Positions 15,601 to 58,926 of a stretch of DNA of 64,000 nt are shown here, piece by piece; within the stretch, counting starts at the first letter, position 1; each line of letters begins with the position of its first letter. Source of the stretch: a virus; the IMG/VR virus record IMGVR_UViG_3300044730_001016, positions 1 through 64,000 of that record; one strand, written 5' to 3'. A program made the translations under genes and the position numbers. The notes under the pieces were generated by a model. It saw only the letters and a list, made by a program, of their open reading frames with translations, was not told where the DNA came from and made no database searches.

Positions 15601-18600
15601 CCGCCCATCTTGTTGCTGGAGATTTTGAGTTCCCACTTTTATAATGAGTGTAACTTTCTATAATTTCCCTTGCTTCACCTTCTTCAATATATTCAACTTT
15701 GTCTATTTTTTTTGAAGCGTCAATAATTTCTTGTGGGTTTTTATTATTAACCCCCTCCAACGCCTCAGCCGTACTCTCTACATCTCTTAACGCAGGAACC
15801 TCAGGAGAAACCGCCTCAGGAGTAACAGCCTCCCCCTCAACTTTCGGAGTAGCCTCAACCGCCGAAACACTCTCAGGCAACACACCGCTATCCTTATATG
15901 CCTTATACTCAGCATCACTTAACTTAACCTCTCTATCCCCTACCTTTGCGAAATAATCAAAACCACCAGTAGGTACTAACTTAGTCCTGTCCTTGTTTAA
16001 CTTCTGCCTACGCTTGGCAATTATTTCAACCTTCGGCGCGCCCCCCGTTTCGGGAATAGGCTCGAAAGTTACCTCCAAAGGAGAAGTAGCCTCAGCAACC
16101 TGACGCGTACCAACACCAACAACACCCCTATCAAACTCAATAGCAGAACGCTCTAACATAGAAGTTACTAACTCCCTACCCTTACCATCTACCTTTAACT
16201 TAGGTAACTCATTCGCAATAAAATCACGCACCTTGGAAGGAGACTTCATAACCTCAGTTACAGCGTCCCAAACACCCTTGTTAATGGTTTCGGTAGTAGG
16301 CAGGTTGTTAATGTCCCTATACGTTACCGTAACGCCCTCAGGGGCTATTTTGTTGATAGCTAAACCACCCAAACTAACTGAACCGCCAGCAAGGCTAATA
16401 GGCAATAAGGTGCGAGCAATATCGGCCAAGTTCTCAGTATCAAACTCCCCGTCCTTAATGATGCCCTCCATTACCTTCGCATCACCAGTAATCAAATTGG
16501 TCAACGGTATGTTTACAAGCTCTTCGCCAAACTCCATCAAAAATCCATTCCAACCACCCATCTCCGCAATCTTCTTAAACGCAGTAGGTGTATCTAAATT
16601 GAACTTGCTCATATACCAACCCACATACGCCTTCTTCAAAAACTCATTCTGCAACATCTTACTCCCCAACGCTTTCATTGCCCTCGCTCCCGCAAAACCT
16701 AACCCCTCAGAGAAATACTCGGAAGCGGTTACACCAAAACCTTTTAACGCAGCCTCAAAGCCACCCTCAGCATCACTGCTGTCTAACATGGCAACCAAAT
16801 CATCACCCTCAGGAGAAAACGCAATAGTCATCTGGGGCGTCATACGCTTCAACGTTTCATCTACATAACGCTGAGGGTTTAACGTGGTTTGCGCTAACGA
16901 ACTAACAAGCGTTCCAGCAAGAACCTTAAACGACTTGCCAACCATCGTTTCTGCCTGTTTGCCAAGCAACTTTACAGCAACCTTTTCAGTTGCTATCCTT
17001 ACGCCACTACCTATCCCTGCGGTGGCAGCAAACTCCATCATAAAAGGTAAACTCTCGGCAGTACCCCTACCAGCCCTATACCAATCCGAAGCCATGTTGT
17101 TTACCTCATACATATTTTTGTATGTGGAATTTAACGCTTCGGCGTTTTTCAAATATCGGGCAGATTCAGTGTCCTTACCCACAGCACGATACAACGCCAA
17201 CGTGCCACTCAAATTCTTTAACCCAGAAACAAAAGGCAAATAATCAACAACCTTCCCAGAAGTTAACCCATTCCAAAAATTCGACCACTCATTATCCGAC
17301 ATCGTTTCAGGCATCTCAATTATCTCCTGTAACTTTTCCCTCGCTAACCGCAACTCCTGAACGTCAGTATCATCATAACCCATACCGCCAACACCAAACT
17401 CCGAACCATATATCCCAGAAGTGTATGTCTTAGTGCCAGTCTTTGCCTCACGCTCTTTAAGCATCTCGTCAAGACGTTCAGCCTCCTCAATAGCACGCGT
17501 CTTTACCATAAACAAAGAAGGAGTACCCTTCTTGGTAAAATACGCCCTATCCATAAACGCATCGTCAAACTCAGCACGCAACCCAGCAACAACACCATCG
17601 TTTATCTGAACACCACTACGCTTTAACTTAGATAAGGCAGTGCCAAACATAGTATCCAACGCAGCCTTCTTCTGGTCGAAAGGTAAGTAATCCCAACCCC
17701 TATTTCCCAAAATCTTGTCAATATTACCCTTTACCCCAGACTTGTTAAGCAAAGGAGTTTCACCCTTCATGCTATTCGTTATAGCACTCTCAATCTTAGA
17801 GTTGTACTTAGGGGCAATATTGTTGAACACCGCCTGCTGAATCTTTTGGTAATCGCCAGAAAAACTCTCAACAACCCCATTACGCAAGTCGTTCAACTCG
17901 TCCATGTAAGCCTTGAACTCTGGCTTATCCTTAACACCCTTTTGTACCCTTTCGGCCAAGGCGCTAACGCCGGAATTATACTCCCCCAACGCCTCATCAC
18001 TCTGCTTCTGCAACTCCGCACCATAAGCATCTAAATCACGCTTTAAGCCTTCATTGGCTTCGTTAACACCCATCTGCCCATTATTCACCTTGGTCTGATA
18101 GTCAAACTTCAACTCACTCGCCTTGGTTTCTAATTGCATAGGTAAAGCAAGCGTGGCAGATTCGTACTTGCCCAACAATTCCTTCTCGCCAACCTTAAAC
18201 TCCTCACCCATCAAAGCCTTAAAATCATACTTCTCATCAACACCTACTCGCTGACTATTAAACTCAGCATCTATCTTTCCCCTTAACGCTACATAATCTC
18301 TGTTGGATAATAACTCTTTTTGTATAGCCTCGTTGCGCTCTTTTTCGATTGGAGCATATAGCGTCTTGAACCTTTCAAACTGAGTAGTCTTGCCCGTTGC
18401 ACCCTTTTCTAAAAACATATTTATCTCTTCGGCGCCCTTCTTATCCCCGGCAGCCTCTTGACTTAAATACGTGGCTAAATTGTTCGTAGTGAAAAGACCA
18501 TTCTGCGAAGCCTTAATCACAAACTCAGGGTCAGCCTCCATAGCCCTACCTAAATCATTTATCTCTTCCTGAACATCCTTCGCAGCAGCCTTGCCAAATA

Positions 18601-19120
18601 ACCTAGTCAAAGCCGGTATCGTTTCCACCGCACGCTCCGTTACCCTGCGATAACGCTCCTCGCCAAAAAGACGCTCAAAGAAATTCCTATCGTCCTCCTC
18701 AACAATCGTGTAAGGGTCTAACTCCTGCCCAATAATCGTAGGCTCACCCTCTGAGCCAACCTCCCCAACCAACGCAGCAGCCTCAGCAACCGGCGCACCC
18801 TTTGGCTCAACACCGGGAGGCGTTCCCCCAGCAGGTGGCCCTACCTCAAATTCGCTCGATACGGATTCGGTAGGGGAAAAACTTTCTTCGGATTGCGCCC
18901 CAGCAAGTGGGGCCTCCACCTTTCCCAGGCTTCCAAACGCATTAGAATTAAACTCCTCAAATGTGGCCTCAGGCATACTCGGCTGGACGTAGTTCTCAAA
19001 TAAACCCACCTTGTACTCCTCGTTATCCCTAATCTTATCTACCCAACCCTCAAAGGTTATGTCTTCACGCACAGGAGCTATGTTCTCCTCAAATATGCCT
19101 TTTAGTATCTCTTTACTCAT
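9680..19120 (-). CDS. giant 3146-aa polyvalent virion (ejection) protein with ART and C5-MTase domains
   Basis: The largest gene here, overlapping the 542-aa gene at TAATG. N-terminal about 1100 residues are helical with coiled coil and hydrophobic stretches (about 690-720 and 760-860). About 1150-1310 is an arginine ADP-ribosyltransferase-like domain: LYRG near 1228, FSAFSTT near 1247, GEIEVLVP near 1288 (R-S-E order). About 1505-1810 is a full cytosine-C5 methyltransferase: FFSGAG near 1511, SPVCKNFS near 1577, ENV near 1618, C-terminal GNGV. QPSAEA repeats form a linker near 1825. About 2450-2690 is a hydrophobic, helix-rich segment resembling the LPD38-type domains of polyvalent proteins. 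Position after two cargo-like genes suggests an internal virion protein ejected with the DNA, like T7 gp16, delivering effectors early. Catalytic activity and ejection are inference. Confidence 0.85.
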   Translation of the reverse strand: MSKEILKGIFEENIAPVREDITFEGWVDKIRDNEEYKVGLFENYVQPSMPEATFEEFNSNAFGSLGKVEAPLAGAQSEESFSPTESVSSEFEVGPPAGGTPPGVEPKGAPVAEAAALVGEVGSEGEPTIIGQELDPYTIVEEDDRNFFERLFGEERYRRVTERAVETIPALTRLFGKAAAKDVQEEINDLGRAMEADPEFVIKASQNGLFTTNNLATYLSQEAAGDKKGAEEINMFLEKGATGKTTQFERFKTLYAPIEKERNEAIQKELLSNRDYVALRGKIDAEFNSQRVGVDEKYDFKALMGEEFKVGEKELLGKYESATLALPMQLETKASELKFDYQTKVNNGQMGVNEANEGLKRDLDAYGAELQKQSDEALGEYNSGVSALAERVQKGVKDKPEFKAYMDELNDLRNGVVESFSGDYQKIQQAVFNNIAPKYNSKIESAITNSMKGETPLLNKSGVKGNIDKILGNRGWDYLPFDQKKAALDTMFGTALSKLKRSGVQINDGVVAGLRAEFDDAFMDRAYFTKKGTPSLFMVKTRAIEEAERLDEMLKEREAKTGTKTYTSGIYGSEFGVGGMGYDDTDVQELRLAREKLQEIIEMPETMSDNEWSNFWNGLTSGKVVDYLPFVSGLKNLSGTLALYRAVGKDTESARYLKNAEALNSTYKNMYEVNNMASDWYRAGRGTAESLPFMMEFAATAGIGSGVRIATEKVAVKLLGKQAETMVGKSFKVLAGTLVSSLAQTTLNPQRYVDETLKRMTPQMTIAFSPEGDDLVAMLDSSDAEGGFEAALKGFGVTASEYFSEGLGFAGARAMKALGSKMLQNEFLKKAYVGWYMSKFNLDTPTAFKKIAEMGGWNGFLMEFGEELVNIPLTNLITGDAKVMEGIIKDGEFDTENLADIARTLLPISLAGGSVSLGGLAINKIAPEGVTVTYRDINNLPTTETINKGVWDAVTEVMKSPSKVRDFIANELPKLKVDGKGRELVTSMLERSAIEFDRGVVGVGTRQVAEATSPLEVTFEPIPETGGAPKVEIIAKRRQKLNKDRTKLVPTGGFDYFAKVGDREVKLSDAEYKAYKDSGVLPESVSAVEATPKVEGEAVTPEAVSPEVPALRDVESTAEALEGVNNKNPQEIIDASKKIDKVEYIEEGEAREIIESYTHYKSGNSKSPATRWAGWFQSINAANKKFIVEDIQNDPKLRNAMLSLFFDVYKSELNFKGSFDDFLNTEITLYRGVTLADKKGVGQEGFSAFSTTKNRVSAYADEQAIGKGQVKEIKIKPIDTYGAVNYIGGGEIEVLVPTEFKNETIRQDFIRLLELNIGLFSEEQTELLEKYYDKEDYISGLAFIKSIISSKPKQLSEAYHKAKEDGSNPELVSAVEELLGKPTQTPEVAEGQPAEVISPEVAEVLSTEDTTRIALESLEVLPEGIESAEEGARIYHEAIGKEERTEAEDAVVMAVEDAVIGGAVVPEVETPEAVETAETVTPEEVSTEGVTPEVPGVVEAAEGQRQPSRVATFFSGAGTMEASLPNAQSVMAVEFNPAYVEAYNKAFGVEYEAKDVRDINPEEVIASKPDIFHASPVCKNFSAAKNKRTVLKSDMESADAVARVIREAQPPIVTIENVPDYQGTVPFETIVKALEDAGYTFDVGVYNSADFGGVQNRERLLIRAVKSGELPPIQEKTAPGDWYSAIEDLIEGAPDSKFESRSESENWEMTRIKDMVRKGKLDATKPIITMGGSASSGVAAAANAGGPAPTLLSTSRSVPRIILPDGTVKRVTPEMMRRLMGLPESYPIPSNPKIAKEVLGNGVDGAFTRALIDPLLNRAETQPSAEAQPSAEGLTSKEKAEQANKRAEEIAEKIRKNLRGRGGITGITPFSRAKRLAEVDRATLALIKDYIYQKVLAGAYTFKDFVEDMKENSKRIFGVQIEVANSDKSIFHSAQSRFEINDAFAQEILDLKDDFLFSIAAMSGRMNMNFQEFISSNSALVNGFVNRAESIYGLDDQAMMLVQEMYQDALRAAANRAESYTTLEDVKKFHETKEELLGLERDMERARINEEIKRRRNWLSRNFDKFQRAFITPVKNFNRAFGYRAGKFSDYRTSQERDVYSARKYRMGASTKAGNWYNAIHNKIYGGLSWFEKVELDKYLIYRRIVEVSEVRNQRAAEYKKLEAELAAGVTPVRKQEIKEAMAELEKAGMGEVKSGSIMVDGKKEEYTVALAEAFVNDINARNDALAIKIRNRAEMYTEANNELLKMRLDSGEISQEAYDSMQKRDYVRRLFVDLSNTTLDEANYSPVSKEIKAIKEGSEDAILEMDTQALLQINAQITFDSVAKNNFIKKVVGWSEAKQQDYLDKALEKFKDARARTERYLRSSPRPLTQDEIDRFIKEQTLFIPLSNDAKVPSGFTAQKYFVDGVEKRVAVRNDIANIFQTPSGRGINENSFAIKAISALLLTPVIKASAVFVNPAFAIGNFALDVIHASMVTRDLYKSFTFNLGTILAKATGYTAENIYRKAVKYGASLFGRTARDSKFERLVKDYFEHGGGMSGLSNPSSRMYSDKLSSSALRRSFGDAMDGIIAVLDVINSLQSGSELITRVIVYEAALDKNIAAYREKNGVDPVGEDLALMKMSAAASSADLIDFREGAEATKAFDQTLLPFLNAMIQGAKAEIDFASKNPLLAAARLAEFGGMALGAALYNANSGDEDEKEGIVGYNGITDYIKSNFFVMMMPWTKKNERGEIVRPFISIKLPAALKATNILVSGMVADQGAENTIGQMASALEGGYVPEIGSVSPTAQIFMALNYNRDAFRKGAPVYRGRADVLLTERFNAGETKAIYRDLFGAMYDLINEDGENEGVLGFDEAGPAQWQAAFEKAISSNNPYYLGITSTYATISSLYGKDNKKEVDALMDEKFAALNAFGSRVYREPNSSVQQKNMKDRKQVDFLRDQIGSWQKKNDDAIEFAAKTIRDINKLEGNSKNVKIDLFFDREVFNYISDAQMIKGIKDQGIKDIPENLDDLNKVINKEQTRLSLRLLEEFKPNFVFKHPALKSYAQSEDSYVGLNAEMINKIAKEYDSSRNRRSYLIALKFVAGDDFKNIVQQIGAHERDLSVVEGITETTSATKYKRLYLRPDNRSSKPISSESAINNLILLKYLLTNE

Positions 19121-38757: not shown

Positions 38758-38765
38758 CAAAGTTA
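38758..38765 (-). promoter_or_regulatory. -7 promoter box TAACTTTG
   Basis: Minus-strand TAACTTTG; start near 38753, 14 nt before ATG 38739 of the scaffold-like gene. It overlaps the last codons of the portal gene and would boost capsid expression. Confidence 0.6.
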
Positions 38766-40997
38766 CATATTATTATTTAACATCAATTTTTCCCCAGTTT
38801 CTAGCCCCAACTTAGTAGCATCAAGCTCCATCTTATCGGCATGGCGAGCATCTTGGCCATCTTGCTTCATAGCCTCTAGCTGTGCTAACTGCTGCCCTTG
38901 GGCTTCAATAGCGGCCATCTGCTGCATTTGCTGCATAGCCTTCATCTGAGCCTCTTCCTTCTTCTTCCTGCGGATTGCAGCCTCAAAGTAATTCATAAGC
39001 TCGTTGTAAGTGTTGGCAGTCTCTATGCGTAAATAATCAAGCATATCCATCTGGCCACTCTGAGCCATTGCCACAGCCATTTGCATTAACCTTCCCTTAC
39101 TCTCCGAGTTGATAACATCTTCAACAACTATCCGGACATTCAACTTGGTAAAAGAGAAATCTTTATTAAGTTTCAAATACTCCGAGCCACGCTCACTGAG
39201 TATCTCTCTTTCAAGTTCCTTGTCGCCATCGTTAATTAAAACAAGCTTCTGCTTCTCTATGCTATACTGCATAACATCGGCATAGAGCTTAATCACTGAG
39301 GCAAAGTAGTATTCCACGCCTTTAGCATTTTGGGCGATGGTGTTCACTTGGGTGTTCATACCTACATAGGTCTGCTGCTGCCCAAGGGCTATCTTGCTCA
39401 CTGAGGCAATAGCCTCCATCTCTGCTTGCTTCTCCTTTTTCAGGTTTATGTAGTGCATGATGTTCTGGGTAATACCCATATCAAGCTTTTCCATTACCCT
39501 TTGGAAGTCGCTTTGGTCTAAGTCCTCACCGGTACTCCTACGCAAAAAGGTAAAGCGATTCTTCTTAATATCGCTCATAAACTCATCGGCATCAGTTTCA
39601 ATGGCATCGCCATAAAACACATACACATTCCCTAAGTCATGGGCTATGGCATCGGTAATCTTTGCCTCCATGACATCTATCTTGTCTTGGGCAGCACGAA
39701 GCCTATCCACTAAGCTTTTGTTGTAACCAATGCGAGTGTACGGCCGAACAGAAAGAATGGGAAGGACAGCCTCTTTAGGCTTAAAGGGATTCCTTACGAT
39801 ATTCTTATCCTCGCCAAAGTTCTTTAGGATTTGGTTTCCGATTAGGGTACCGCGCCGAATAGTTTGAAACATAAAGTCTCCTTTCTTCCGGCGGCCTTTC
39901 CCCTCGATTAAATCCCCAATATCAACATTCTTGTAAGACTTCCAAAAAGCAGTAACACAAGCCACACGCCCTTCACCTTCACTCCACCACCAAGGGAAAT
40001 AATACCCTTGTGCTGAACCATAAAAATCATTGGCCGTAGGTACCGTACCCCCAGCCATAGAATAAATAGTGTTACGCTCTTCCTCATCAGTTATCTTGTA
40101 CTTGGAGATAACCTCCTCAGGAGATAAAAACTCAATGTACCCAGCAAACCTATCCCTATCGGAAAAATCCTCATCACCAACTTGGTCAATGATTACCTGC
40201 TGCGGCTGTACCACATGGTGGCGAACATAACCCTCTTCATCAGTATCAACGAGCATCGCACCAATGCGATTTATAATCGTGTTTGAAAATATCTTCTCTA
40301 TAAGCGCTGGGGTGTTGTTCCTAAAGATAATATCCTTCATCAACTTTAACGCCTCAATCTCTTGGGGGAAGTTGTTGATGTATTCCATTAGGTCTTCAAA
40401 TTCGGCGTCTGAGGCAGCCGGGAAAGGGTTATACTCCACACCCAAATTAGCAAGCTCATCAAGTATGCCAGTCTTTTTCATCATGGCAAACATATAGGCT
40501 TGCATACGCTCACTTTCGGCCTTTGCCCTACCTTCCTTGCTATTGTTCTGAATAGATAGCTTTGAATAGGCTATACGGCCCGAAAAGCTGCCAATCAAGT
40601 GAGTAATCAAATTATACACCTGATGCCCCCTTTCCCAAGGGGTAGGGATAATAAGCGAACCACCACCCCCAGGCAATACCTTATTCTGCAAAGGGTCCTC
40701 AAACAAATAGGAAAACCTATCGTTTGGCTGGTCCCCATGAAAATACATGTAGTTGTTAATCATCTGCTGCACCGGAGTGTTTTGAAACAAAGCACTATTG
40801 GTGAAGGAAGATACCACACTGCCATCTGGCCGGCCAGTATTGTAGTTGGGGCGGTTATACATTCCAGCCACAAACCGAACACATTGGGCATACCACTCTT
40901 CCAAAGAATGATACTTTTGAGTTATCTGCTCATCGCTCAATGCCTGCTCAGGCAAGCTGCTAATATAAACCCCAGAAGTAGGTGAAGTTAAAATCAT
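38763..40997 (-). CDS. portal protein
   Basis: A 744-residue protein between the terminase and scaffold-like genes. The length matches crAss-like portals. Visible features: NLITHLIGSFSGRIAY (about 160) in the wing region, DRLRAAQDKIDVMEAKI and LKKEKQAEMEAIASVSKIALGQQQTYVGMN (crown/stem helices near 440 and 560), and a Gln/Met-rich C-terminal helix (KAMQQMQQMAAIEAQGQQLAQLE). The portal forms the dodecameric DNA gate and binds TerL. Confidence 0.82.
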   Translation of the reverse strand: MILTSPTSGVYISSLPEQALSDEQITQKYHSLEEWYAQCVRFVAGMYNRPNYNTGRPDGSVVSSFTNSALFQNTPVQQMINNYMYFHGDQPNDRFSYLFEDPLQNKVLPGGGGSLIIPTPWERGHQVYNLITHLIGSFSGRIAYSKLSIQNNSKEGRAKAESERMQAYMFAMMKKTGILDELANLGVEYNPFPAASDAEFEDLMEYINNFPQEIEALKLMKDIIFRNNTPALIEKIFSNTIINRIGAMLVDTDEEGYVRHHVVQPQQVIIDQVGDEDFSDRDRFAGYIEFLSPEEVISKYKITDEEERNTIYSMAGGTVPTANDFYGSAQGYYFPWWWSEGEGRVACVTAFWKSYKNVDIGDLIEGKGRRKKGDFMFQTIRRGTLIGNQILKNFGEDKNIVRNPFKPKEAVLPILSVRPYTRIGYNKSLVDRLRAAQDKIDVMEAKITDAIAHDLGNVYVFYGDAIETDADEFMSDIKKNRFTFLRRSTGEDLDQSDFQRVMEKLDMGITQNIMHYINLKKEKQAEMEAIASVSKIALGQQQTYVGMNTQVNTIAQNAKGVEYYFASVIKLYADVMQYSIEKQKLVLINDGDKELEREILSERGSEYLKLNKDFSFTKLNVRIVVEDVINSESKGRLMQMAVAMAQSGQMDMLDYLRIETANTYNELMNYFEAAIRRKKKEEAQMKAMQQMQQMAAIEAQGQQLAQLEAMKQDGQDARHADKMELDATKLGLETGEKLMLNNNM

Positions 40998-41021: not shown

Positions 41022-41795
41022 TTAAAAAAATCCATCTGACTTTGGGTTGTGGGTAAGCCTCAAGTCCATGTCTATACCCTCGTGGCCTTGGATACCCCTT
41101 AGTTTAATCCTTTTCGCCACTGGCCTGCCGCCCTCACTCACATACACAGTCTTGTAGATTGGCTTCTGCTCTTGGTACTTAATCTCCCTGATGTTGTAGT
41201 GGTGCTTCCAGTCTAACAGGGCAGCGATAAGCGCCCAGGCAATATCGGTATTCTCTACCCCCAACTTTTCAATGTCTTCAATAATCTCATATCCCCAGCA
41301 GTAATCCATGCCATAGATTATCCATTCCACCAATACTTTGATTGCTGGCCCTTTGGTGCTGTTATCGTTGTTCCAGCCTCTAAGCCTTTTCTTTTCTTTC
41401 CCTAGCTTGGCATTCCGCCAATTAGCCAAAAGCGCCGAATAGGGATAATGGCTTAAATACCTGCTCAACCCTGAATCATCATACCTCTGCATAAACACAC
41501 CCCCAGCATTACGCTCTAAGTTGTTCTTGCAATCATTATAAGCCTTCTGCAAAGCAAAGGTCTCATTAAACACAAAGTCCACATCATTAGTCCTAGCAAG
41601 GTAATACGCCACAGGATAGGGAGCCTTTTCATTCTCTGGGTTCTCCCGAATAATCACAGAGCATTGTTTACTTCGCTCCTCAGTCTCTAGGTGTGCCTGC
41701 CCCCTATCTCCAAAAGGTATAGGGTCAGTGCCCATGTAATAAATCCCATCAGCCTGAGGGTGTTCTAGTATCATTAACTTACTTAGTGTCTTCAT
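41022..41795 (-). CDS. terL: terminase large subunit, nuclease part (split TerL)
   Basis: A 257-residue ORF carrying the RNase H-like nuclease half of TerL. Motif I is IYYMGTDPIPFG at about residues 18-29 (first catalytic Asp). The last acidic motif is NTDIAWALIAALLDW near 205-220. The C-terminus is basic (KPVAKRIKLRG-like). It starts in an ATGA overlap with the ATPase ORF, so it is translationally coupled. Together the two give 697 residues, a normal TerL size. It cuts the concatemer during packaging. The split could be natural, a frameshift site, or a sequencing error. Confidence 0.85.
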   Translation of the reverse strand: MKTLSKLMILEHPQADGIYYMGTDPIPFGDRGQAHLETEERSKQCSVIIRENPENEKAPYPVAYYLARTNDVDFVFNETFALQKAYNDCKNNLERNAGGVFMQRYDDSGLSRYLSHYPYSALLANWRNAKLGKEKKRLRGWNNDNSTKGPAIKVLVEWIIYGMDYCWGYEIIEDIEKLGVENTDIAWALIAALLDWKHHYNIREIKYQEQKPIYKTVYVSEGGRPVAKRIKLRGIQGHEGIDMDLRLTHNPKSDGFF

Positions 41796-43114: not shown

Positions 43115-43385
43115 AATCTATGCCGTCTTCTTTGGCAAAGATACGACAATACTTGATGTTTTCAGCGTAAAAGGATTCCTTTTCGGCGCCTAAAAACTCT
43201 CGGAGCTTCTCAACATTACACACTAACGGCCTGTCATTATACACCTTACACTGATTATCTACAAGGTTTTCACACACACCATTAGTGTTCTTGTAGGGAA
43301 AGTGTAGAGGGTGGTCTTCGGGGAACTTTTGTATGCTACCAACCCTTCGGCAACACGCACCACAACCTATGCAGGGGAAGGTCAT
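43089..43385 (-). CDS. YkgJ-type CxxCxxCC metal-cluster protein
   Basis: A 98-residue protein with the YkgJ family pattern: CIGCGACCRR at residues 5-14, then CENLVDNQCKVYNDRPLVCNVEK near 37-60. Members bind a metal cluster (zinc or iron) and have no settled function. It overlaps the serine recombinase by 4 nt at its start and terL at its end (26 nt). In phages it appears as a single accessory gene. Confidence 0.88.
   Translation of the reverse strand: MTFPCIGCGACCRRVGSIQKFPEDHPLHFPYKNTNGVCENLVDNQCKVYNDRPLVCNVEKLREFLGAEKESFYAENIKYCRIFAKEDGIDYDNHRQIP
43136..43143 (-). promoter_or_regulatory. -7 promoter box for terL
   Basis: Minus-strand TATCTTTG, about 17 nt from predicted start to ATG 43114. 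It lies within the end of the CxxCxxCC gene. Confidence 0.6.
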
Positions 43386-44032
43386 ACCGCGCCGAAACGA
43401 ATAAGCCTTTGAACAGTCATAGGCAAAAACCCTTTACCCCTAGAACTCTTCATGCCAAGAGCATTAAACTCCTCGGCAATAGCAGCATAACTCATACCCG
43501 AATCCTTAAACCTCCTAGCAAGCCTAACAGCATTACTAAGCCTAGCCTTAGACCTCTCCCTACGAACCTCAACACTACGCTCCTGCATATAGTTAAAATG
43601 CTCCCTAGGTAACTCCTGCTTGTGGGAATAATAACCCAACTTCTTGCCATTCTGCTTTAAGATGTTAAGGGCTTCCTTTGTCCGCTTGGAAATGGTCTCA
43701 GCCTCATCTTGGGCGATAACAGCAAAAATACCAAATACCATCGTGTTAATCTCCGGCATGGTGTGGCAGCGTAACTTTACACCAGAGTTCTTAATCTTTA
43801 GTGCATATTCGGCGTCCCTAGCCAATCGGTCAATCTTATAGAATAACAACGTGCAATCATGCTCCTTGCAATACTCTAACGCTGCAAGAAGCTGAGGCCG
43901 CTCCTTATTCTTACCACTCTCCTGCTCAATAAACCACTTCTCAGGGTTGTAGGTCTGCAATGCCTGGCGCTGAACCTCAATGCCATTGTCCTGTTTGTTG
44001 GTAGATGTCCTACCATAAGCTATGTATCTCAT
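43382..44032 (-). CDS. small serine recombinase (resolvase/invertase type)
   Basis: A 216-residue serine recombinase: IAYGRTSTNKQ at residues 3-13 with the nucleophile Ser, EVQRQAL, then LLFYKIDRLARDAEYALK near 70-85, and a C-terminal Hin-like helix-turn-helix (SGMSYAAIAEEFNALGMKSSRGKGFLPMTVQRLI). It lies at the divergent switch region, next to the tRNA-like element. It could resolve genome multimers, invert DNA or integrate. No inverted DNA segment was noticed nearby. It is short for a large serine integrase, so integration is less likely. Confidence 0.9.
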   Translation of the reverse strand: MRYIAYGRTSTNKQDNGIEVQRQALQTYNPEKWFIEQESGKNKERPQLLAALEYCKEHDCTLLFYKIDRLARDAEYALKIKNSGVKLRCHTMPEINTMVFGIFAVIAQDEAETISKRTKEALNILKQNGKKLGYYSHKQELPREHFNYMQERSVEVRRERSKARLSNAVRLARRFKDSGMSYAAIAEEFNALGMKSSRGKGFLPMTVQRLIRFGAV

Positions 44033-44282: not shown

Positions 44283-44449
44283 CTCTTGACTACTAACTTG
44301 TCATTAAAGACGCAAAAACAAAGCGTTTTATCCCTTTTCTTACAAGTTGTTACGTTAGGTTATGGTAATCGGTTTTATCTCGATTATCGTAACAAATATT
44401 GGCAATAAATGTTACGAATACCCCACCGCGCCGAAAAGTAAAAATTAAG

Positions 44450-46099: not shown

Positions 46100-46345
46100 A
46101 TGAAATCAGCCGAATACTTCAAGCAAAACCCAGAGGCCCGAAAGAAGAAAAACGCCTATAACAAAGAATACCACTCCACCCCAGAGCGTAGAAAGTATCG
46201 TGCAGCCCTAAATAAAGCCAATAGAGCCAACCCAGCACCTAAAGGCATGGATAAGTCCCATACCAAGTCTGGGAAGCTCGTAAACGAAGCTAAAAGCACC
46301 AATAGGGCAAGGAACGGCAAGGGAGGGAAATCTTCCAAAAAATAG
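46100..46345 (+). CDS. lysine-rich small DNA-binding-type protein
   Basis: An 81-residue very basic protein (MKSAEYFKQNPEARKKKNAYNKEYHSTPERRKYRAALNKANR in two pieces: NPEARKKKNAYNKEYHSTPE and RRKYRAALNKANR). This YH(S/T)xxERRKYR pattern is shared by small phage proteins in several lineages; function is not known to me. It has its own promoter and lies directly upstream of the origin-like gap, so a role in replication or DNA packing is plausible. Confidence 0.7.
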   Translation: MKSAEYFKQNPEARKKKNAYNKEYHSTPERRKYRAALNKANRANPAPKGMDKSHTKSGKLVNEAKSTNRARNGKGGKSSKK

Positions 46346-47260
46346 CCCATTACCCAACCGCGCCGAAAAGCACCCCTGCCAAAAAAACACCCCCCCCCCA
46401 CAACCCCACCCCCCCCAACCAAAGAGAACCCAATAAGGTAACCAAGAGAAAAGGTAACCCAATAGACAACTACCAACAAGGTAACCCAGAGAGAAGCAAA
46501 CAGCCCCCATGTACGCCAAACAGCCTTGGGGAAGTAAAGAAGCCTTGGGAAGTGGTAAAGGGGTGTGGTAAAGGGGTTGTGGTAAACAGCTTATCCCCTT
46601 GGGTTCGTGGTAAAGGGGTGTGGTAAAGAGCCTTGGGGTTGTGGTAAAGGTAAACAGCTTATCCCTTTGTGTTCCCGGTGTATATGTAGAAGCCAGCCGA
46701 TGCGCCCGCGCCCAAAAGTACCGGCGGCCTTGCACCCCACCCCACCCCACGCGCGCACCTATACGCGCACGCACCCCCACGCACGCACATACGCGCGAAA
46801 AGAAACGCGAAACGAAACGCACCTGCCACGCCCTGATCCATACGCGAAAAGTTTTACGCGCACGCACGCACACGCACACACACGCGCACACCTGGGCGCA
46901 TACCTGGACGCGGGTGTATCTTTACGCAATAACATTTCCCTTTTGTTCGTTTCGCAAATGTTATTTAGATGCATACCTACTCTCAAAAAACTCCATTAGC
47001 TTCATTCAGGTGCGCAACGGTTGGCAATTTTGCACCTATTTTGATGCCTGAGTATGGTCAACGGTTCACTTTTTCTTTATCCTACACTCCCCCAACCCCT
47101 ACCTTTATACCTTCCAACCCTTAAAAAATGTACACTTTTCAAAAATTATTCTCGTTCTGTATGCCTTGCAAATAAAGGGCTTTTAAAAAAAGATTAAAAA
47201 AAGATGCATTTTTTTTGCTTTTATTTCTTGCGGGGTATTGTTTTTTAAAAAAAACGTTTG
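46346..47260. other. gene-free repeat region, candidate replication origin
   Basis: No credible ORF: the long frames here are low-complexity on both strands. Visible parts in order: a poly-C run (about 46388-46416), three copies of AAGGTAACC (about 46434-46485), repeated AGCCTTGGG, a tandem pair of about 55-65-bp units built from GTGGTAAAGGGGTGTGG and TAAACAGCTTATCCC (46552-46673), a 170-bp alternating CG/CA tract prone to Z-DNA (about 46738-46910), and an A/T-rich stretch (about 47100-47260) that could unwind. Iteron-like repeats plus an AT-rich block are standard origin parts; the assignment is inference. Confidence 0.55.
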
Positions 47261-47268
47261 TAGGTTTG
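47261..47268 (+). promoter_or_regulatory. -7 promoter box of the small-gene early operon
   Basis: TAGGTTTG, 28 nt before ATG 47297, with TTG about 20 nt upstream. First promoter after the origin-like region. Confidence 0.6.
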
Positions 47269-47296
47269 TCTTGTTCAATAATCAAAATCAAAAACC

Positions 47297-47551
47297 ATGA
47301 ACGCAAAAATCAAAATCACGCGGCAAATTTTACCGCAACATTCCCAAACCACAACGTTGCTTTACGTTACTAAAGCGGGTGAACCTGATTACAAGGAAGA
47401 CATTCTATTTGAGTGCAGGGGATATACTAATCTAGATGAGCTTGAGAGGGCGGGTATTGCTTATGCTGAGAAAAATAACATTGACCGCCTGCGCATAGCT
47501 GTATTAGATATGCGGGTTGCCCCTGACTTTTCTAAAGCTGTTAACATTTAA
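47297..47551 (+). CDS. hypothetical protein
   Basis: An 84-residue ORF: beta-rich start (KIKITRQILPQHSQTTTLLYVT) and a helix ERAGIAYAEKNNIDRL, then a final strand IAVLDMRVAPDF. It is the first gene of the small-gene operon whose members share AACCATG-type start contexts. No family recognised. Confidence 0.6.
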   Translation: MNAKIKITRQILPQHSQTTTLLYVTKAGEPDYKEDILFECRGYTNLDELERAGIAYAEKNNIDRLRIAVLDMRVAPDFSKAVNI

Positions 47552-49533: not shown

Positions 49534-50808
49534 ATGTTACAGATTCAAATTGAAAATTACAGCGAAAAAGCTATCAAAATTCACGGAGACACTAAGCCCA
49601 TAAAGGACGCGCTCAGGGATGCCGGCGCGAAGTTCAACCCATACTTAAAGGGAGGCCCTGGCTGGATTGCTTCAGCAAAGAAACGGGAGACCTTTGAGGC
49701 CATCATTTACTCCGCACCCACCGCCGCACCCATTACCCTCGCAAGTGTTACAATGGAAGCGCCCAAGGTAGTGGTACACGAAGCGCCTAAGGTAGTTATC
49801 CAGGACGCGCCGGTTATACCATCAACGCCACCAACACCACCAACCCCTCCGCGAGCTAAGCGCTCCGCAAAGTTTGGGGTAAAAGAACTATTCAGGATCT
49901 TACCTATAAGCAAGGCGGCACCATACGCAATCCTGGAGGGTAACGTGCTAAGCTATTTCTCTAAGATAGGGCCGGTTCACTACGAACTGGACGCCACCTT
50001 TGGCAAAGTAAGTATTGAAGCTTCGTTTATTAAGGACAACGGCATACCGGTAAACATTCAGGAAGGAATCGCCACCTTTGAGAATGGAATGAAGGCAGGC
50101 GTAACACCCACCGAGGAAAGCTTTAATATCGACAAAGCGGGTAAACTACTTATCAGCTCCAGCGCGCTTAACGCTTTTGACACCCTCAAAACATTCCTAA
50201 GCAAGAACGAATTAAAACCAGCAATGAACGGCGCCTACTTTGCTAATGGTAAGATATGCGCCACCGATGCCCACCGTTTACGCGTCCTAGAGGCACAATT
50301 TGAGAGCGAGGGGGTGATCCTATCAAAGGCAGCCCTAGAGCTTCTTAAACATTCGCAAATTAAGGGACATACTGATTACGCCACCTTTGAAGATATTGGA
50401 GTTACTTTAGGAAGGGAATGGTTGGTTGATGCGATATATCCAAAGTATGAAGCAATCATGCCGAATCCAGACAGCGCCGAATCGACCTTAACCTTTAGCA
50501 AAAAGGCGCTTTTACCTTTGCTAGAAAATGCCCTTAAAGCAGCGCACAAAGATACAAAGCTAGTGGTATTGACCTGCGAGGGCGAAAGGCTGAATGTAAG
50601 CGCCTCCGACCTTGACAGAGGTACGAACTTTGCCGCCACCGCTCCCGCCTCTGGAAGTATTAAGATAGGGTACAATGCTGCGCTCCTTATCGACGTGCTA
50701 AAGAGTATTGAGGCGGACGAGGTTACAATCCACTACTTTGGTGAGCCTAGGCCTTCGCTCTTTAACCTTACCTCTTTGTTAATGCCTGTAATGATTAACA
50801 ACGATTAA
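49534..50808 (+). CDS. sliding-clamp (DnaN-like) protein with extra N-terminal domain
   Basis: A 424-residue protein. Residues 1-55 form a separate domain (IQIENYSEKAIKIHGDTKPI, AGAKFNPYLKGGPGWIASAKK), known as a small stand-alone module in Bacteroidota phage and plasmid proteins. A Pro-rich linker follows (about 80-105). From about 115 on it resembles beta clamp domains: MNGAYFANGKICATDAHRLRV near 228-250 (DnaN TDGHRL motif), YPKYEAIMPNP near 300, and the end LLMPVMI (DnaN MPMRL). It would tether a polymerase to DNA. The fused N-terminal domain is unusual. Confidence 0.78.
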   Translation: MLQIQIENYSEKAIKIHGDTKPIKDALRDAGAKFNPYLKGGPGWIASAKKRETFEAIIYSAPTAAPITLASVTMEAPKVVVHEAPKVVIQDAPVIPSTPPTPPTPPRAKRSAKFGVKELFRILPISKAAPYAILEGNVLSYFSKIGPVHYELDATFGKVSIEASFIKDNGIPVNIQEGIATFENGMKAGVTPTEESFNIDKAGKLLISSSALNAFDTLKTFLSKNELKPAMNGAYFANGKICATDAHRLRVLEAQFESEGVILSKAALELLKHSQIKGHTDYATFEDIGVTLGREWLVDAIYPKYEAIMPNPDSAESTLTFSKKALLPLLENALKAAHKDTKLVVLTCEGERLNVSASDLDRGTNFAATAPASGSIKIGYNAALLIDVLKSIEADEVTIHYFGEPRPSLFNLTSLLMPVMINND

Positions 50809-53969: not shown

Positions 53970-54208
53970 CGATTAACGGCACAGAGCTAACCGATGAGTT
54001 CGACTCGCCGAATGAGTTAACCGGCCACTACCTTGCCGCCAGGGCCGCCCTAGAGAATTTTGAAGGGGAAGATGTGTTTGTTATCTATGATGTTCAGCAC
54101 AACGGCAAGAAGTACGGCCACATGGACTACTGCAAAAAAAAGAACCTGGGGGTGCTTATCGCCATCCAGACTTCAATTTATCGAATGCGATTAAAACAAA
54201 CACAATGA
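53951..54208 (+). CDS. hypothetical protein
   Basis: An 85-residue ORF overlapping the previous one by 19 nt. Beta start (TITVTINGTELTDEF) and helix ELTGHYLAARAALENFEG. No family recognised. Overlaps the next gene by 4 nt. Confidence 0.55.
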   Translation: MGTITVTINGTELTDEFDSPNELTGHYLAARAALENFEGEDVFVIYDVQHNGKKYGHMDYCKKKNLGVLIAIQTSIYRMRLKQTQ

Positions 54209-54681
54209 CATTCAAAGAACTTTTAATCGAATTAGACGCTTGCGAAAGTGCAAGAGAATGGGCAGGTGATATGCCCATTGAAGAAGTAGTTGCAACCTGC
54301 CACCAAGGGGATTGGTTGCTGTGGCTTGCCAAAAAAGTTGATGCAGATTTGCGACTTTGCACATTAGCAAAAGGGCATTATGCCAATACAATAAGGCATT
54401 TAATGAAAGACGAGCGAAGTATAAACGCTGTTAATGTAGCTATTGCATTTGGCGAAGGCAAAGCTACTCGTGAAGAGTTAGACGCTGCTGCTGCTGCTTC
54501 TCGTGCTGCTGCTGATGCTGCTTATGCTGCTGCTGCTGATGCTTATGCTGCTGCTGCTTATGCTGCTTATGCTGCTGCTGCTGATGCTTATAGTGATGCC
54601 TTAAACCGCCAACAAACCGCAGACATTTGCCGAGAGTATATCGGCGAAAGTTTAATCCAAAAAGTAAACCAACTACTATGA
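54205..54681 (+). CDS. Ala-repeat protein with GCT-rich microsatellite
   Basis: A 158-residue protein. The first 90 residues are a conserved-looking helical domain (MTFKELLIELDACESAREWAGDM, LRLCTLAKGHYAN). Residues about 93-128 are an almost pure A-A-Y/D-A repeat coded by GCTGCT/GCTTATGCT units (54481-54590). Similar Ala-repeat proteins occur in bacteria and phages. The DNA repeat is likely to vary in length by slippage. The tail (RQQTADICREYIGESL) is a helix. Function unknown. Confidence 0.7.
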   Translation: MTFKELLIELDACESAREWAGDMPIEEVVATCHQGDWLLWLAKKVDADLRLCTLAKGHYANTIRHLMKDERSINAVNVAIAFGEGKATREELDAAAAASRAAADAAYAAAADAYAAAAYAAYAAAADAYSDALNRQQTADICREYIGESLIQKVNQLL

Positions 54682-55076: not shown

Positions 55077-56345
55077 ACTACCCACCCACGCTAAAGCGAT
55101 GGGATGGGCTTTAAACCTAAGAACGAATGCACTTGACAGTACAACATACTCGGCTTTTCAGGATGGTTTACATTCATCCCCAACAATGCTATGTTCTTTG
55201 CTGCATTTTCATCAGCATCAAACACAGAATTGCAGTTTTTACAAGTAAATTTTTTGCCTTGTCTATTGCCTATATGCAGACAATTATGGCAAGTCTTACT
55301 CGTATAAGCAGGTGGCACATCTACCAATTTAACGCCATTAAGCAAACACTTGTAAGTAAGAAAACTTCTGAGTTGATTGAAGTTCCATTTTCCTACTCTG
55401 CTTCTAAATTTTTTGCCTTTCTTGTTAGCAGAAAATCTAATGCCTTTCAAATTCTCAATTGCAATTCCTTTACCTTCGGATTTTGCAAGTTGAACAATTT
55501 GTTTGCTTATTGTGTGATTGATAATTGTACTTGTAGTTCGTTCTTTGCCAGACAATCGTTTCAGGACTTTTTTACAGCCTTTCGTACCTTTGCTTTGAAG
55601 CGAACTCCTTACTTTTTGTCGTTTTTCTCTATAATCGTTAAGTTTTTTAGAATTAAAAGATTTGCCATTACTAAGTGCCGCTATTTCCAACAGCCCCATA
55701 TCAACTCCGATAAATTCTTCAATATCTTTTACTTCTTCTTCGGGAACATCAACGGTTTGAAACAAGTAAAATTTACCTTTCTTGTAAACCAAATCCGCCT
55801 CACCTTTAATGTAAGGCAAATAATTTCGGTTATGGCACACAAAAGGTATTTTAATCCTACCACCAATAGCCCAAAGAGATACAATATCATTCGGCTTGTA
55901 GGTCATAATCCTACTGTCATAACCAATACTTCCAAGTGGACGAAACTCTCTCTTGGTTTTCTTATCAAGTTTGTAGGCATCAGCAACTTTTGCAATACAA
56001 CGTACAAGAATTTGAGAAGAAAGTTTGAATGTAGCTTTGTAAGAATGGTAAACTTCGTGATGGAGTTTAAAATTATTGAAAATACGCTTCTCCCAAGCCA
56101 CCTCAGAAATGGCATTGCAAACAGTATTAGCTTCCTTCATCGTATCGAGAAGCAAGTTAGCCTGTTCATCAGTAGGCAAAAGTTTAATTTTCAAAGTGAG
56201 TTTCATACAATAATAAATACGTACAAAAATACTAAAAGTTTCTTATATCAGAAAATAGTTTTAAATTTGTTTAACTTTAAAGGCGTTAGCGTGTCGCTTA
56301 CCTCCCATCCACACTACGTGATGAATGGGTTTCACGCTCCAATAC
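55077..56345 (-). mobile_element. IS605-type tnpB-only insertion element
   Basis: A TnpB gene is flanked by subterminal hairpins. The left end (minus orientation) at about 56303-56335 has GTGAAACCCAT...GTGTGGATGGG, and the right end at about 55079-55110 has CCATCCCATC...GTGGGTGGG. Both are typical of IS200/IS605 left and right ends. No TnpA gene is present, so it depends on a transposase elsewhere. The right end should also encode the omega RNA that TnpB uses as its guide. It sits between the HTH gene and the next ORF without breaking either. Confidence 0.85.
55091..56206 (-). CDS. tnpB: TnpB (IS605 OrfB) RNA-guided nuclease
   Basis: A 371-residue TnpB with RuvC-I GVDMGL near 178, RuvC-II IAIENLKGI near 262, a zinc ribbon (CHNCLHIG...FTCKNCNSVFDA) and RuvC-III DADENAAKN near 335. 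The D-E-D triad appears intact, so it may be active as an omega-RNA-guided nuclease, the ancestor type of Cas12. The N-terminal region has the usual helix-turn and lysine-rich face (MKLTLKIKLLPTDEQ). In a phage it may promote its own retention or target competing phages. Confidence 0.93.
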   Translation of the reverse strand: MKLTLKIKLLPTDEQANLLLDTMKEANTVCNAISEVAWEKRIFNNFKLHHEVYHSYKATFKLSSQILVRCIAKVADAYKLDKKTKREFRPLGSIGYDSRIMTYKPNDIVSLWAIGGRIKIPFVCHNRNYLPYIKGEADLVYKKGKFYLFQTVDVPEEEVKDIEEFIGVDMGLLEIAALSNGKSFNSKKLNDYREKRQKVRSSLQSKGTKGCKKVLKRLSGKERTTSTIINHTISKQIVQLAKSEGKGIAIENLKGIRFSANKKGKKFRSRVGKWNFNQLRSFLTYKCLLNGVKLVDVPPAYTSKTCHNCLHIGNRQGKKFTCKNCNSVFDADENAAKNIALLGMNVNHPEKPSMLYCQVHSFLGLKPIPSL

Positions 56346-56745: not shown

Positions 56746-57076
56746 GAGCATCATTGATGCCAAGATAAAGGAAGCCAAGCAATCTCTGGTGGATAGCGTA
56801 GAGCATTACTGCCACGCCTCAGGGCGGACAGATGAAAGGCTAGACTGTTCCCACATAATCAGCGTTAAGCGATGCCAAGAAATGGGTAAGAGTGAACTTG
56901 CTTGGGACGTGAATAACATTCAGCTGGAAGGCAGAACTGCCCACCACCAATGGGAAAGCTGGGAGGCTTATGCCCAGGAGGTGAAGGGGCATAACAATTT
57001 AAGAGTTAAACTAGACTACATACAAAAACACGATCCACAATCTTATGAGCGCTTTAAGGCTTTCGGAATTGAATAA
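56708..57076 (+). CDS. HNH-type nuclease-like protein
   Basis: I start at ATG 56708 (122 aa); a longer frame begins at 56678. The core reads CHASGRTDERLDCSHIISVKRCQEM then LAWDVNNIQLEGRTAHHQWE. It has the phage HNH arrangement: Cys/His pair, then N...H-H. It lacks a second CxxC pair, so metal binding is not certain. Such small HNH proteins often cut DNA near the terminase or act as nicking endonucleases. Overlaps the next gene by 32 nt. Confidence 0.7.
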   Translation: MNHYNTSSGRVSKSIIDAKIKEAKQSLVDSVEHYCHASGRTDERLDCSHIISVKRCQEMGKSELAWDVNNIQLEGRTAHHQWESWEAYAQEVKGHNNLRVKLDYIQKHDPQSYERFKAFGIE

Positions 57077-57392
57077 GTTGCAACTCATTGAGCTTGGGTT
57101 GGAGATACAGAACAGGATAAGGCAGATGGATGCCGCCCAGAACTCTGTTGACCATATTTTGGCCTACTACAATGTTACCTTGGAGGATATTCGTGGGAAG
57201 AAAAAGAACCGGGAGCTTGTAAAAGCCCGAATAGCAATATACTTTTACCTTTCCTCCCTAAAGATTGCCAGAAAAGTTGTCTGGGCATTCATAGGTAAAG
57301 ATAGAACTACCTTGCTATACTACGACAAGCAAATATCCAATGCCAAAGAGTTTGACAGAGGCTTTTACCAAGAGTTAAAACAATTCGCATGA
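57045..57392 (+). CDS. DnaA domain IV-like DNA-binding protein
   Basis: A 115-residue protein, with a C-terminal 75-residue helical part that reads like the DnaA C-terminal DNA-binding domain: VDHILAYYNVTLEDIRGKKKNRELVKARIAIYFYLSSLK and then GKDRTTLLYYDKQI, comparable to the DnaA signature GxDHTTVxxA. The upstream half lacks AAA+ motifs. It may bind DnaA-box-like sites at the phage origin (46346-47260) or host promoters. Overlaps the HNH-like gene and the next gene by 4 nt. Confidence 0.7.
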   Translation: MSALRLSELNKLQLIELGLEIQNRIRQMDAAQNSVDHILAYYNVTLEDIRGKKKNRELVKARIAIYFYLSSLKIARKVVWAFIGKDRTTLLYYDKQISNAKEFDRGFYQELKQFA

Positions 57393-57799: not shown

Positions 57800-57914
57800 G
57801 GCATTTATGCTGTTGCTCTGGGCAGGGATTATTGTCCTGAGCGTAAAGATTTATTTTATCCCCTTGACTATTTTTGCCATAGGGAGAGTTAACGGTGTAA
57901 TTTTTAACGTATGA
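57780..57914 (+). CDS. small membrane protein
   Basis: The frame opens earlier, but ATG 57780 gives MKKVLTKAFMLLLWAGIIVLSVKI, a clean membrane helix or signal, and limits the overlap with the upstream gene to 20 nt (44 aa). No family recognised. Confidence 0.5.
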   Translation: MKKVLTKAFMLLLWAGIIVLSVKIYFIPLTIFAIGRVNGVIFNV

Positions 57915-58054
57915 AAATGTTGATATTGATTATCGTTTCGGCGGCCTTGGGCATTCCAGAATATGAAGTTAAAACCATTGATGGGGAGTGCGGAAAACTA
58001 TACACCTCCGAGCCACATGAAGTTGGAGATACAATAATAATCTGCATGCCATGA
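57911..58054 (+). CDS. small exported or membrane peptide
   Basis: A 47-residue ORF with a hydrophobic start (MKMLILIIVSAALGIP) and a polar tail with a CGKLYTSE motif and two Cys. It overlaps both neighbours by 4 nt (ATGA type). Probably exported or membrane-attached; role unknown. Confidence 0.55.
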   Translation: MKMLILIIVSAALGIPEYEVKTIDGECGKLYTSEPHEVGDTIIICMP

Positions 58055-58212
58055 TTGCCATAGCTGTTTTACTCATGGTATCAGTGTTTATCTACTATGA
58101 CAACAAAGTGGTAAACTGCGAGCATCTTGATGTTGAAGATGTTGCCGTTATAATGCTATCCGTTGTGGCCGCTTTTCTTTTAACTATTATTAACATTTGT
58201 GTATTGAAATAG
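58051..58212 (+). CDS. small two-helix membrane protein (target of cassette insertion)
   Basis: A 53-residue ORF with two hydrophobic helices (MIAIAVLLMVSVFIYY and AVIMLSVVAAFLLTIINICVL). The DNA coding for its last helix (58161-58198) is duplicated at 58889-58926, on the other side of the cassette-like unit. This suggests the cassette inserted at or near the 3' end of this gene. Confidence 0.6.
   Translation: MIAIAVLLMVSVFIYYDNKVVNCEHLDVEDVAVIMLSVVAAFLLTIINICVLK
58161..58198 (+). repeat. 38-bp direct repeat, left copy
   Basis: Matches 58889-58926 in 37 of 38 positions (one A/T difference). Distance between copies is 728 bp. Confidence 0.9.
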
Positions 58213-58216
58213 TTTG

Positions 58217-58224
58217 TAGGTTTG
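58217..58224 (+). promoter_or_regulatory. possible -7 box TAGGTTTG
   Basis: TAGGTTTG just after the stop of the small membrane gene and just before the attC-like hairpin. It could drive the cassette gene. Confidence 0.35.
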
Positions 58225-58232
58225 GGGTGTAA

Positions 58233-58324
58233 ATAACGTTTTGCGTGTTTATGTCAGGCGGGCATAGCACGAACTTAATTACTAATCGCAAGTTGTCCGC
58301 CCGCTTGCATAAACACGCTGTTAT
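58233..58324 (+). repeat. attC-like imperfect hairpin
   Basis: Paired blocks in order: ATAAC (58233-58237), GCGTGTTTATG (58243-58253), GCGGGC (58258-58263), AACTT (58272-58276), then AAGTT (58290-58294), GCCCGC (58299-58304), CATAAACACGC (58308-58318) and GTTAT (58320-58324). Each block pairs with its mirror, with unpaired bulges of unequal length on the two arms. This is the layout of a folded integron attC site of about 92 nt. The core boxes do not match the RYYYAAC/GTTRRRY consensus exactly. Confidence 0.75.
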
Positions 58325-58362
58325 ACGCAGCCTTTTATTTGTTAAATTTTAAAATCAAGAAT

Positions 58363-58848
58363 ATGAAAAACTTAGAAAATAAAGAAATCCTTTCAGATGA
58401 AATATTCAACGCAATTTCACTGATTATTAAACAAACTCCAAATGCCGTTTTCGGCGGATCAATTGCCTTAAATGCTGTTGGATTAATTAATAGACCTATT
58501 TCTGATATTGATTTGTTTTTTGGAATGAATGAAAGTTTATCTAAAAATGGATATTTATCAGTTGAAACTATTGGAGAAATAACTTCCGATACGGTTACTA
58601 ATACAAATGGCATTGAAATACAAAGAACTGGGGCTAAAATAGCAGGTGTAAAAACCTGTTGTTTTAAAGTATCTGATGAAGAATTGCAATGCTCGAAACA
58701 CAAATTTACCAGGAATGAAACTGAAATAAGTATTTGCATTCAAAACGTGAATTATGCAATTGAAGCAAAAAAATCTTATTCAAGTCTAAATCCAAAGCAT
58801 AAAAAAGATTTAGAAACTATCTCGAATGTGCTGGACTGTCTTTTTTAA
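58363..58848 (+). CDS. nucleotidyltransferase-fold protein on a cassette-like unit
   Basis: I start at ATG 58363 (161 aa), which lies after the hairpin; the longer frame needs a TTG. The motif FGGSIALNAVGLINRPISDIDLFF (GGS, then R, then DIDL) at about residues 30-55 is the nucleotidyltransferase core seen in AbiEii/MNT-type and related toxins or tRNA-modifying enzymes. It is short; the rest is beta-rich with three Cys (VKTCCF, ELQCSKH). AT content is higher than in the flanking genes. Possible roles are toxin, antitoxin partner or anti-phage function; none is shown. No partner gene is adjacent. Confidence 0.72.
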   Translation: MKNLENKEILSDEIFNAISLIIKQTPNAVFGGSIALNAVGLINRPISDIDLFFGMNESLSKNGYLSVETIGEITSDTVTNTNGIEIQRTGAKIAGVKTCCFKVSDEELQCSKHKFTRNETEISICIQNVNYAIEAKKSYSSLNPKHKKDLETISNVLDCLF

Positions 58849-58854
58849 GGTTGT

Positions 58855-58879
58855 GCCTAACTAATGTATAGGCGAAACA
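58855..58879 (+). repeat. attC-half-like motif at cassette end (copy 3)
   Basis: GCCTAAC (58855-58861, exact RYYYAAC) then GTATAGGCGAAACA. GCCTA (58855-58859) pairs with TAGGC (58869-58873). It starts 7 nt after the stop codon of the nucleotidyltransferase-like gene. 58857-58879 is the exact reverse complement of 34015-34037. Confidence 0.8.
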
Positions 58880-58888
58880 GCCCTACTT

Positions 58889-58926
58889 CGTTGTGGCCGC
58901 TTTTCTTTTAACTATTTTTAACATTT
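58889..58926 (+). repeat. 38-bp direct repeat, right copy
   Basis: Second copy of 58161-58198, 37 of 38 identical. No ORF uses it in frame here beyond a short remnant. Confidence 0.9.

Follow-up and report, generated by a model that had tools for sequence, protein, structure and literature searches.

In PLE, a phage satellite of Vibrio cholerae, the origin is a repeat-bearing noncoding region that is needed for replication, and one of its repeat families is the binding site of the initiator; these semi-palindromic RepA_N iterons have been proven by binding and by genetics (PMC7145576). The ori of phage lambda consists of iterons for the O protein that are located inside the initiator gene and are directly flanked by an A/T tract (PMC7466680). 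Iterons of plasmid origins such as those of RK2, P1, and R6K are usually 17–22 bp in length and occur together with a Rep initiator and often with DnaA boxes (PMC4980987). The bases of the DnaA box are read by residues R399, P423, D433, H434, T435, and H439 of DnaA (E. coli numbering; PMC7561715). Here, we compare with these systems a gene-free stretch in the genome of an uncultivated phage, in which a repeat array, an alternating tract, and promoter signals are real and conserved, beyond what chance would produce.

The DNA analysed (hereafter the window) comprises 64,000 of the 65,101 bases of the uncultivated virus record IMGVR_UViG_3300044730_001016. A sister record of 65,909 bases has a map that is circularly permuted relative to that of the window record, each lacking part of the other, and the two together imply a circular map of ~70 kb. 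The leftward block from 44.0 kb holds structural genes (portal, 38763–40997), and the rightward block from 44.5 kb holds early and replication genes. No near relatives of the phage were found among the phage records searched. The phage is tailed. Its host probably belongs to the Bacteroidota, as judged from TTG-N20-TAnnTTTG promoters, a BT4734-like primase-type domain encoded by the sister record, and the relatives of the N-terminal domain of a clamp-like protein, which occur in Parabacteroides, Dysgonamonadaceae, and Alistipes assemblies (n = 3; the alignment reached the N-terminal domain only). The phage may carry two sliding-clamp-like genes, one at 49534–50808 and a second recognised by eye in the sister record (reversed coordinates 7231–8280). 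No match to a DNA polymerase was obtained among all five window ORFs of >500 aa and the 531-aa helicase of the sister.

Several further observations were made along the genome. The structural block encodes a 3,146-aa protein (9680–19120, - strand) with a DNA-methyltransferase-like segment at residues ~1498–1861, perhaps an injected or virion-borne methylase. Between a resolvase/invertase gene and the divergent early genes lies a 31-bp near-perfect palindrome (44387–44417; 15-nt arms, 87% complementary), a possible recombination or operator site. A TnpB-like ORF (55091–56206, - strand), of the IS605 OrfB type by eye and with a CxxC zinc-finger motif, is inserted in the orientation opposite to that of the surrounding early genes. 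At 58161–58926, an insert of ~0.7 kb (ORF 58339–58848, 169 aa) is located between 38-bp direct repeats that are 97% identical, and includes an imperfect hairpin of ~100 nt (58235–58330) resembling an integron attC site. Two related contigs, L092 (at 11119) and L093 (at 10587), have one copy of the 38-bp repeat and no insert, and the contig L005 carries other small-gene inserts at the equivalent site (15171–16317). The locus looks like a gene-cassette site within the phage; no integrase was seen.

The longest gene-free stretch found in the window extends over 951 bp (46346–47296), from the stop codon of the upstream ORF at 46345 to the ATG of the next ORF at 47297. Its array is covered by only two other independent lineages, L012 (the L005 family) and L021; the contig of a further relative, L003, starts inside the stretch. 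The features of the stretch and of its surroundings are as follows.

46100–46345, + strand: upstream gene, 81 aa, phrog_6437.
46346–46423, + strand: C-rich tract, poor in G and T, that starts right behind the upstream stop codon (44 C, 5 G, and 3 T in 78 nt).
46435–46486, + strand: left repeat group, three copies of AAGGTAACC (46435, 46451, 46478).
46518–46668, + strand: main repeat group, six copies of GTGGTAAA (46552, 46565, 46579, 46607, 46620, 46641).
46736–46912, + strand: alternating CA/CG tract, C-rich and T-poor, ~177 bp.
46794–46812, + strand: CGCGAAAAGAAACGCGAAA block, which breaks the tract and is identical in three lineages.
46917–46924, + strand: TATCTTTA, a weak -7-like box.
46930–46963, + strand: dyad TAACATTT-N18-AAATGTTA, 3' of TATCTTTA, the only such dyad in the window.
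47238–47268, + strand: putative Bacteroidota-type promoter TTG-N20-TAGGTTTG, inside an A/T-rich block.
47297–47551, + strand: downstream gene, 84 aa, absent from L012 and L021.
49534–50808: clamp-like protein, phrog_947, near the gene-free stretch.
50871: RadC-like protein, in the replication neighbourhood.
57045–57392, + strand: stand-alone DnaA-domain-IV-like protein, 115 aa, a candidate reader of the repeats.

A preliminary description of this DNA had reported no gene in the stretch, and we likewise found no credible gene in it. Two + strand ORFs (46607–46999 and 46620–47051) were rejected as genes; their frames are not kept in the relatives, where indels are many. Stop codons require T, and these frames stay open because T is nearly absent, amounting to 4.7–6.7% of the + strand across them. 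Among all 150-bp windows of the 64 kb, those starting at 46352 and 46684 contain the least T on this strand. No tRNA and no Rfam match was found in the window.

The repeat families of the array have GGTAA as their common core. Ten GGTAA cores occur within ~220 bp, all on the + strand, a number reached by none of 2,000 shuffles, while elsewhere at most five fall into any 250-bp window. In the main group, three copies of GCCTTGGG and two of GGTAAACAGCTTATCCC are interleaved with GTGGTAAA, and this group holds six of the ten + strand copies of GTGGTAAA in the record. GTGGTAAAGGGGTGTGG occurs twice (46552 and 46607), and TGTGGTAAA four times in the gene-free stretch. The counts of AAGGTAACC, GCCTTGGG, GTGGTAAA, TGTGGTAAA, and GTGGTAAAGGGGTGTGG were all far above those in dinucleotide shuffles, so that the several repeat families noted before are indeed present. 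The units, with a core of 5–8 bp, are spaced 13–16 nt apart with gaps of 21–28 nt. The array is the densest cluster of 9-mer repeats in the window, setting aside an alanine-rich (GCT/GCA) coding repeat at 54484–54591 within ORF 54205–54681. Expectation-maximisation, applied to the arrays in search of a motif, failed to converge on anything useful. In our tentative reading, the array is a binding site for a sequence-specific, probably phage-encoded, protein.

In the tract that follows, purines and pyrimidines alternate at 70% of steps, compared to 47% genome-wide, and its alternating runs include the three longest in the window, at 46855–46891 (37 nt), 46778–46797 (20 nt), and 46760–46774 (15 nt). 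The 170-bp alternating CG/CA tract previously proposed is thus present, but it is not continuous, being interrupted by CGCGAAAAGAAACGCGAAA. Exact matches to CGCGAAAAGAAACGCGAAA were restricted to four related contigs in the viral collection. Most of the dyad helix persists in L012 and L021, where one pair is broken and others have changed to wobbles. The larger hairpin (46915–46973) is partly kept in the relatives, the changes being mostly one-sided among the few sequences compared.

The A/T-rich block, at about 47104–47268, belongs to the least stable 0.3–0.7% of positions. Such a segment had been pointed out before; it exists but is ordinary, as about a dozen other places in the window equal or exceed it in weakness. 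It begins more than 430 bp beyond the last repeat, and the GC-rich tract, the most GC-rich stretch, lies in between. The promoter within the block has equivalents in L012, L003, and L021 (one base shorter in L021), ~30 nt upstream of the downstream ATG. This conserved promoter would account for the A/T block equally well as an unwinding element would. The order of repeats, Z-DNA tract, and A/T block, which the preliminary description had taken for an origin with an unwinding element, is real as an anatomy and kept in the sister phages, but its A/T block is distant and promoter-bearing.

Comparison with sister phages, suggested earlier as a check, showed that the array and the tract both recur in L012 and L021. 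The two relatives have eight and six GGTAA cores, numbers again reached by none of 2,000 shuffles for each. Identity between L012 and the window record is 97–100% in the 0.8 kb preceding 46346 and falls to ~74–92% precisely where the upstream gene stops, so that the control region forms part of a module that can be exchanged; two of the three AAGGTAACC copies are kept. In L021, the array is barely alignable (39–63% identity), yet six GGTAA and three TTACC remain, and its units, GGTAACt, are regularly spaced ~15 nt apart (14–16 nt) with different flanks. Since GGTAA persists in L021 while the surrounding sequence has diverged, the core is probably under constraint, and this retention is the best evidence for a function of the array. 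Alternation in the tract is retained as well (0.77 in L012 and 0.75 in L021), and the CGCGAAAAGAAACGCGAAA block, the dyad, and the downstream promoter are recognisable in the sister lineages. Indels are commoner in the gene-free stretch than in its flanks. Neither L012 nor L021 has the downstream genes g47297, g47848, and g48115, and the L021 clamp shows only 40% identity; the region thus stays in place although neighbouring genes are swapped, which we counted in favour of an origin. More distant relatives of the upstream gene (L097–L140) have neither array nor tract, and an exact search for the conserved blocks in 2.9 million viral contigs matched only the sister group.

The protein encoded at 57045–57392 matched the Pfam family Bac_DnaA_C (PF08299) with 32.2 bits, narrowly over the curated cut-off of 31.5, which was exceeded in 4 of the 7 records searched; it also matched DnaA sequences of solved structures. 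An AlphaFold2 model (pLDDT 88.7) had DNA-bound DnaA domain IV as its top PDB matches in Foldseek (3PVP and 1J1V; TM 0.62–0.65, probability 1.00, E about 0.005–0.01). By sequence and predicted fold, the protein is a genuine relative of DnaA domain IV; the AAA+ domain is absent. Every related record whose contig extends far enough encodes it; in the G003 lineage, where the contig ends before the array, its identity is 47%. A search of genome contigs for host or prophage relatives returned none. In a HMMER alignment to 3PVP, the equivalents of R399, D433, and T435 are kept, and P423, H434, and H439 are replaced by R, R, and Y, respectively, the change at H434 being invariant in five homologues. 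Because of these three changes, the protein probably reads a site other than the DnaA box. A single step separates the relaxed DnaA box TTWTNCACA from TTTACCACA, the sequence of TGTGGTAAA on the opposite strand; exact copies of TTTACCACA are few in L012, and L021 has none. Of the earlier proposal that this protein reads the repeats, the domain-IV fold stands, but no link to the repeats could be shown, since the gene is 10 kb away, three of the six base-contacting residues differ, and MT835476.1, which encodes a distant homologue (35% identity), lacks any similar array within 20 kb. We therefore treat the pairing of protein and repeats as a hypothesis only. In its fullest form, this idea would have a phage origin read by a stand-alone DnaA-domain-IV protein through an array of diverged boxes (TTTACCACA/GGTAA core), drawing in the host machinery with neither an AAA+ initiator nor a polymerase of its own; we consider this unlikely. 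A literature search for phage-encoded DnaA-domain-IV initiators yielded no paper.

On present evidence, we read the stretch as an intercistronic control region of the rightward early/replication block, in which the array most likely serves the initiation or control of replication; this is a tentative reading, to which we assign a probability of roughly 0.42. Ten or so directly repeated sites would be bound cooperatively by a protein, and the resulting complex would wrap or bend the DNA, with the alternating tract taking up torsion. The strands would then open in the A/T-rich segment, where transcription from the promoter of the next operon may aid opening or priming, and the host replisome would be recruited, a step proposed because no phage polymerase was recognised. 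An origin is favoured by the conserved iteron-like array, by its place beside replication genes (clamp-like, 49534; RadC-like, 50871; and the DnaA-domain-IV-like gene of the related records), and by the lack of a polymerase match among the ORFs of >500 aa. Points against it are the wide separation of A/T block and repeats, the 10 kb to the DnaA-domain-IV-like gene, a C-over-G bias and promoter boxes that allow a simple transcriptional reading, and the small number of lineages covering the array. GC skew, named earlier as a check, did not single out the stretch: the cumulative minimum lies ~6 kb away, at 52.9 kb in the record and at an equivalent ~52 kb in the sister, and third-position skew is negative throughout 44–52.6 kb, with no sign change at 46–47 kb. 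The cumulative curve is, however, nearly flat between 44 and 58 kb, a broad plateau that includes the gene-free stretch, so that the distant minimum weakens, without excluding, an origin here. No exact DnaA box (TTWTNCACA) is present in the stretch. Its four near-boxes, TTTACCACA with one mismatch each, are equalled in density at several other places, and an origin built on host DnaA boxes was rejected as a strong claim. The gap at 57800–58338, considered as an alternative origin, has no direct repeats, and its last part belongs to the inserted cassette. We found no account of a replication origin in this phage group.

The stretch might instead be a transcription boundary and no origin at all, with the C-rich tract loading Rho, the repeats acting as operators or RNA elements, and the A/T block as a promoter. 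Rho loading (rut) sites are C-rich and G-poor in the transcript. The 78-nt window with the highest C-over-G excess on the + strand of the 64 kb begins exactly at the upstream stop codon (46346–46423), the equivalent ranks first in L012 and tied first in L021, and no + strand intrinsic terminator-like site was found between 46346 and 47297; a C-rich, G-poor segment of this kind suggests transcription termination, a reading absent from the preliminary description. The conserved TAnnTTTG promoter with a TTG upstream of it, which precedes the next gene by ~30 nt, and the unique conserved dyad adjoining the TATCTTTA box fit such a boundary. Against it, the RNA folds no more stably than shuffles (z 0.57 for 46346–46915 and 0.60 for 46915–47296), and termination and promoter alone leave the ten same-strand GGTAA repeats and the alternating tract unexplained. 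Because of these repeats we rank a boundary second, close behind an origin, as a possibility of some weight but still doubtful.

Packaging offers another explanation, in which a small terminase binds the repeats and starts headful packaging at a pac site. The circular permutation of the two records, each missing a different piece, is compatible with this, a weak large-terminase match lies 4–5 kb away (41022–41795), and the contigs of two relatives start inside the stretch (L002 at 46398, L003 at about 46946). These breaks fall, however, at a poly-C run and at the edge of the alternating tract, ordinary places for assembly to fail; a small terminase was not recognised in the vicinity of the repeats, and the stretch lies in the early block, which is oriented opposite. 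A pac site therefore appears improbable to us. No likelier is low-complexity DNA of little function, its repeats and CA/CG tract produced by slippage and local duplication and shared by descent, even though the tandem GTGGTAAAGGGGT copies resemble recent duplications and indels exceed those in the flanks. Phages have compact genomes, and no gene-free stretch found in the window is longer than this one; moreover, GGTAA persists in L021 at its regular ~15-nt spacing with different flanks amid diverged sequence. The serine recombinase gene nearby (43382–44032) and the dyad at 46930–46963 could mark a recombination or partition site, for example a target of that resolvase/invertase-like protein, but a tighter near-palindrome (44387–44417) adjoins the recombinase gene itself and no ParA/ParB match was obtained among the proteins scanned, which makes such a site very improbable, the least favoured reading of all.

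If the array is an origin, it provides a model that is compact and testable, in which repeats, alternating GC tract, and promoter/A-T block follow each other in an unusual order; if the DnaA-domain-IV protein reads it, the phage would have pared down the initiator used throughout bacteria to the domain that reads DNA. Should the stretch be a transcription boundary instead, it would still be a clean candidate for Rho-type termination in Bacteroidota phages.

Compared to known systems, the locus is a composite. With the RK2, P1, and R6K origins it shares multiple same-strand direct repeats of one unit and a possible unwinding element; unlike in these, the core is 5–8 bp in length, no Rep protein was recognised, and there is no exact DnaA box. 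In its A/T element, which does not adjoin the repeats, and in its initiator, the layout departs from the known iteron origins, and we did not file it in that family. The presence of both direct repeats and an A/T-rich segment in the early region also recalls lambda ori; here, in contrast, the repeats are intergenic with a short core, and the A/T block follows them only after more than 430 bp, part of which is a GC-rich tract. The protein encoded at 57045 resembles DnaA domain IV (PF08299; 1J1V, 3PVP) in sequence, predicted fold, and the R399, D433, and T435 equivalents, and differs from DnaA in lacking the AAA+ domain and in the changed equivalents of P423, H434, and H439. The C-rich, G-poor segment directly after the stop codon, with no intrinsic terminator, is similar to rut sites, although a G-rich repeat array and an alternating tract follow this putative, sequence-based rut. 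Like the origin of PLE, finally, the stretch is a gene-free region with several repeat families, although its repeats are plain direct ones with a candidate initiator at most; as a precedent for a repeat-bearing noncoding origin, PLE was counted in favour of reading this stretch as an origin.
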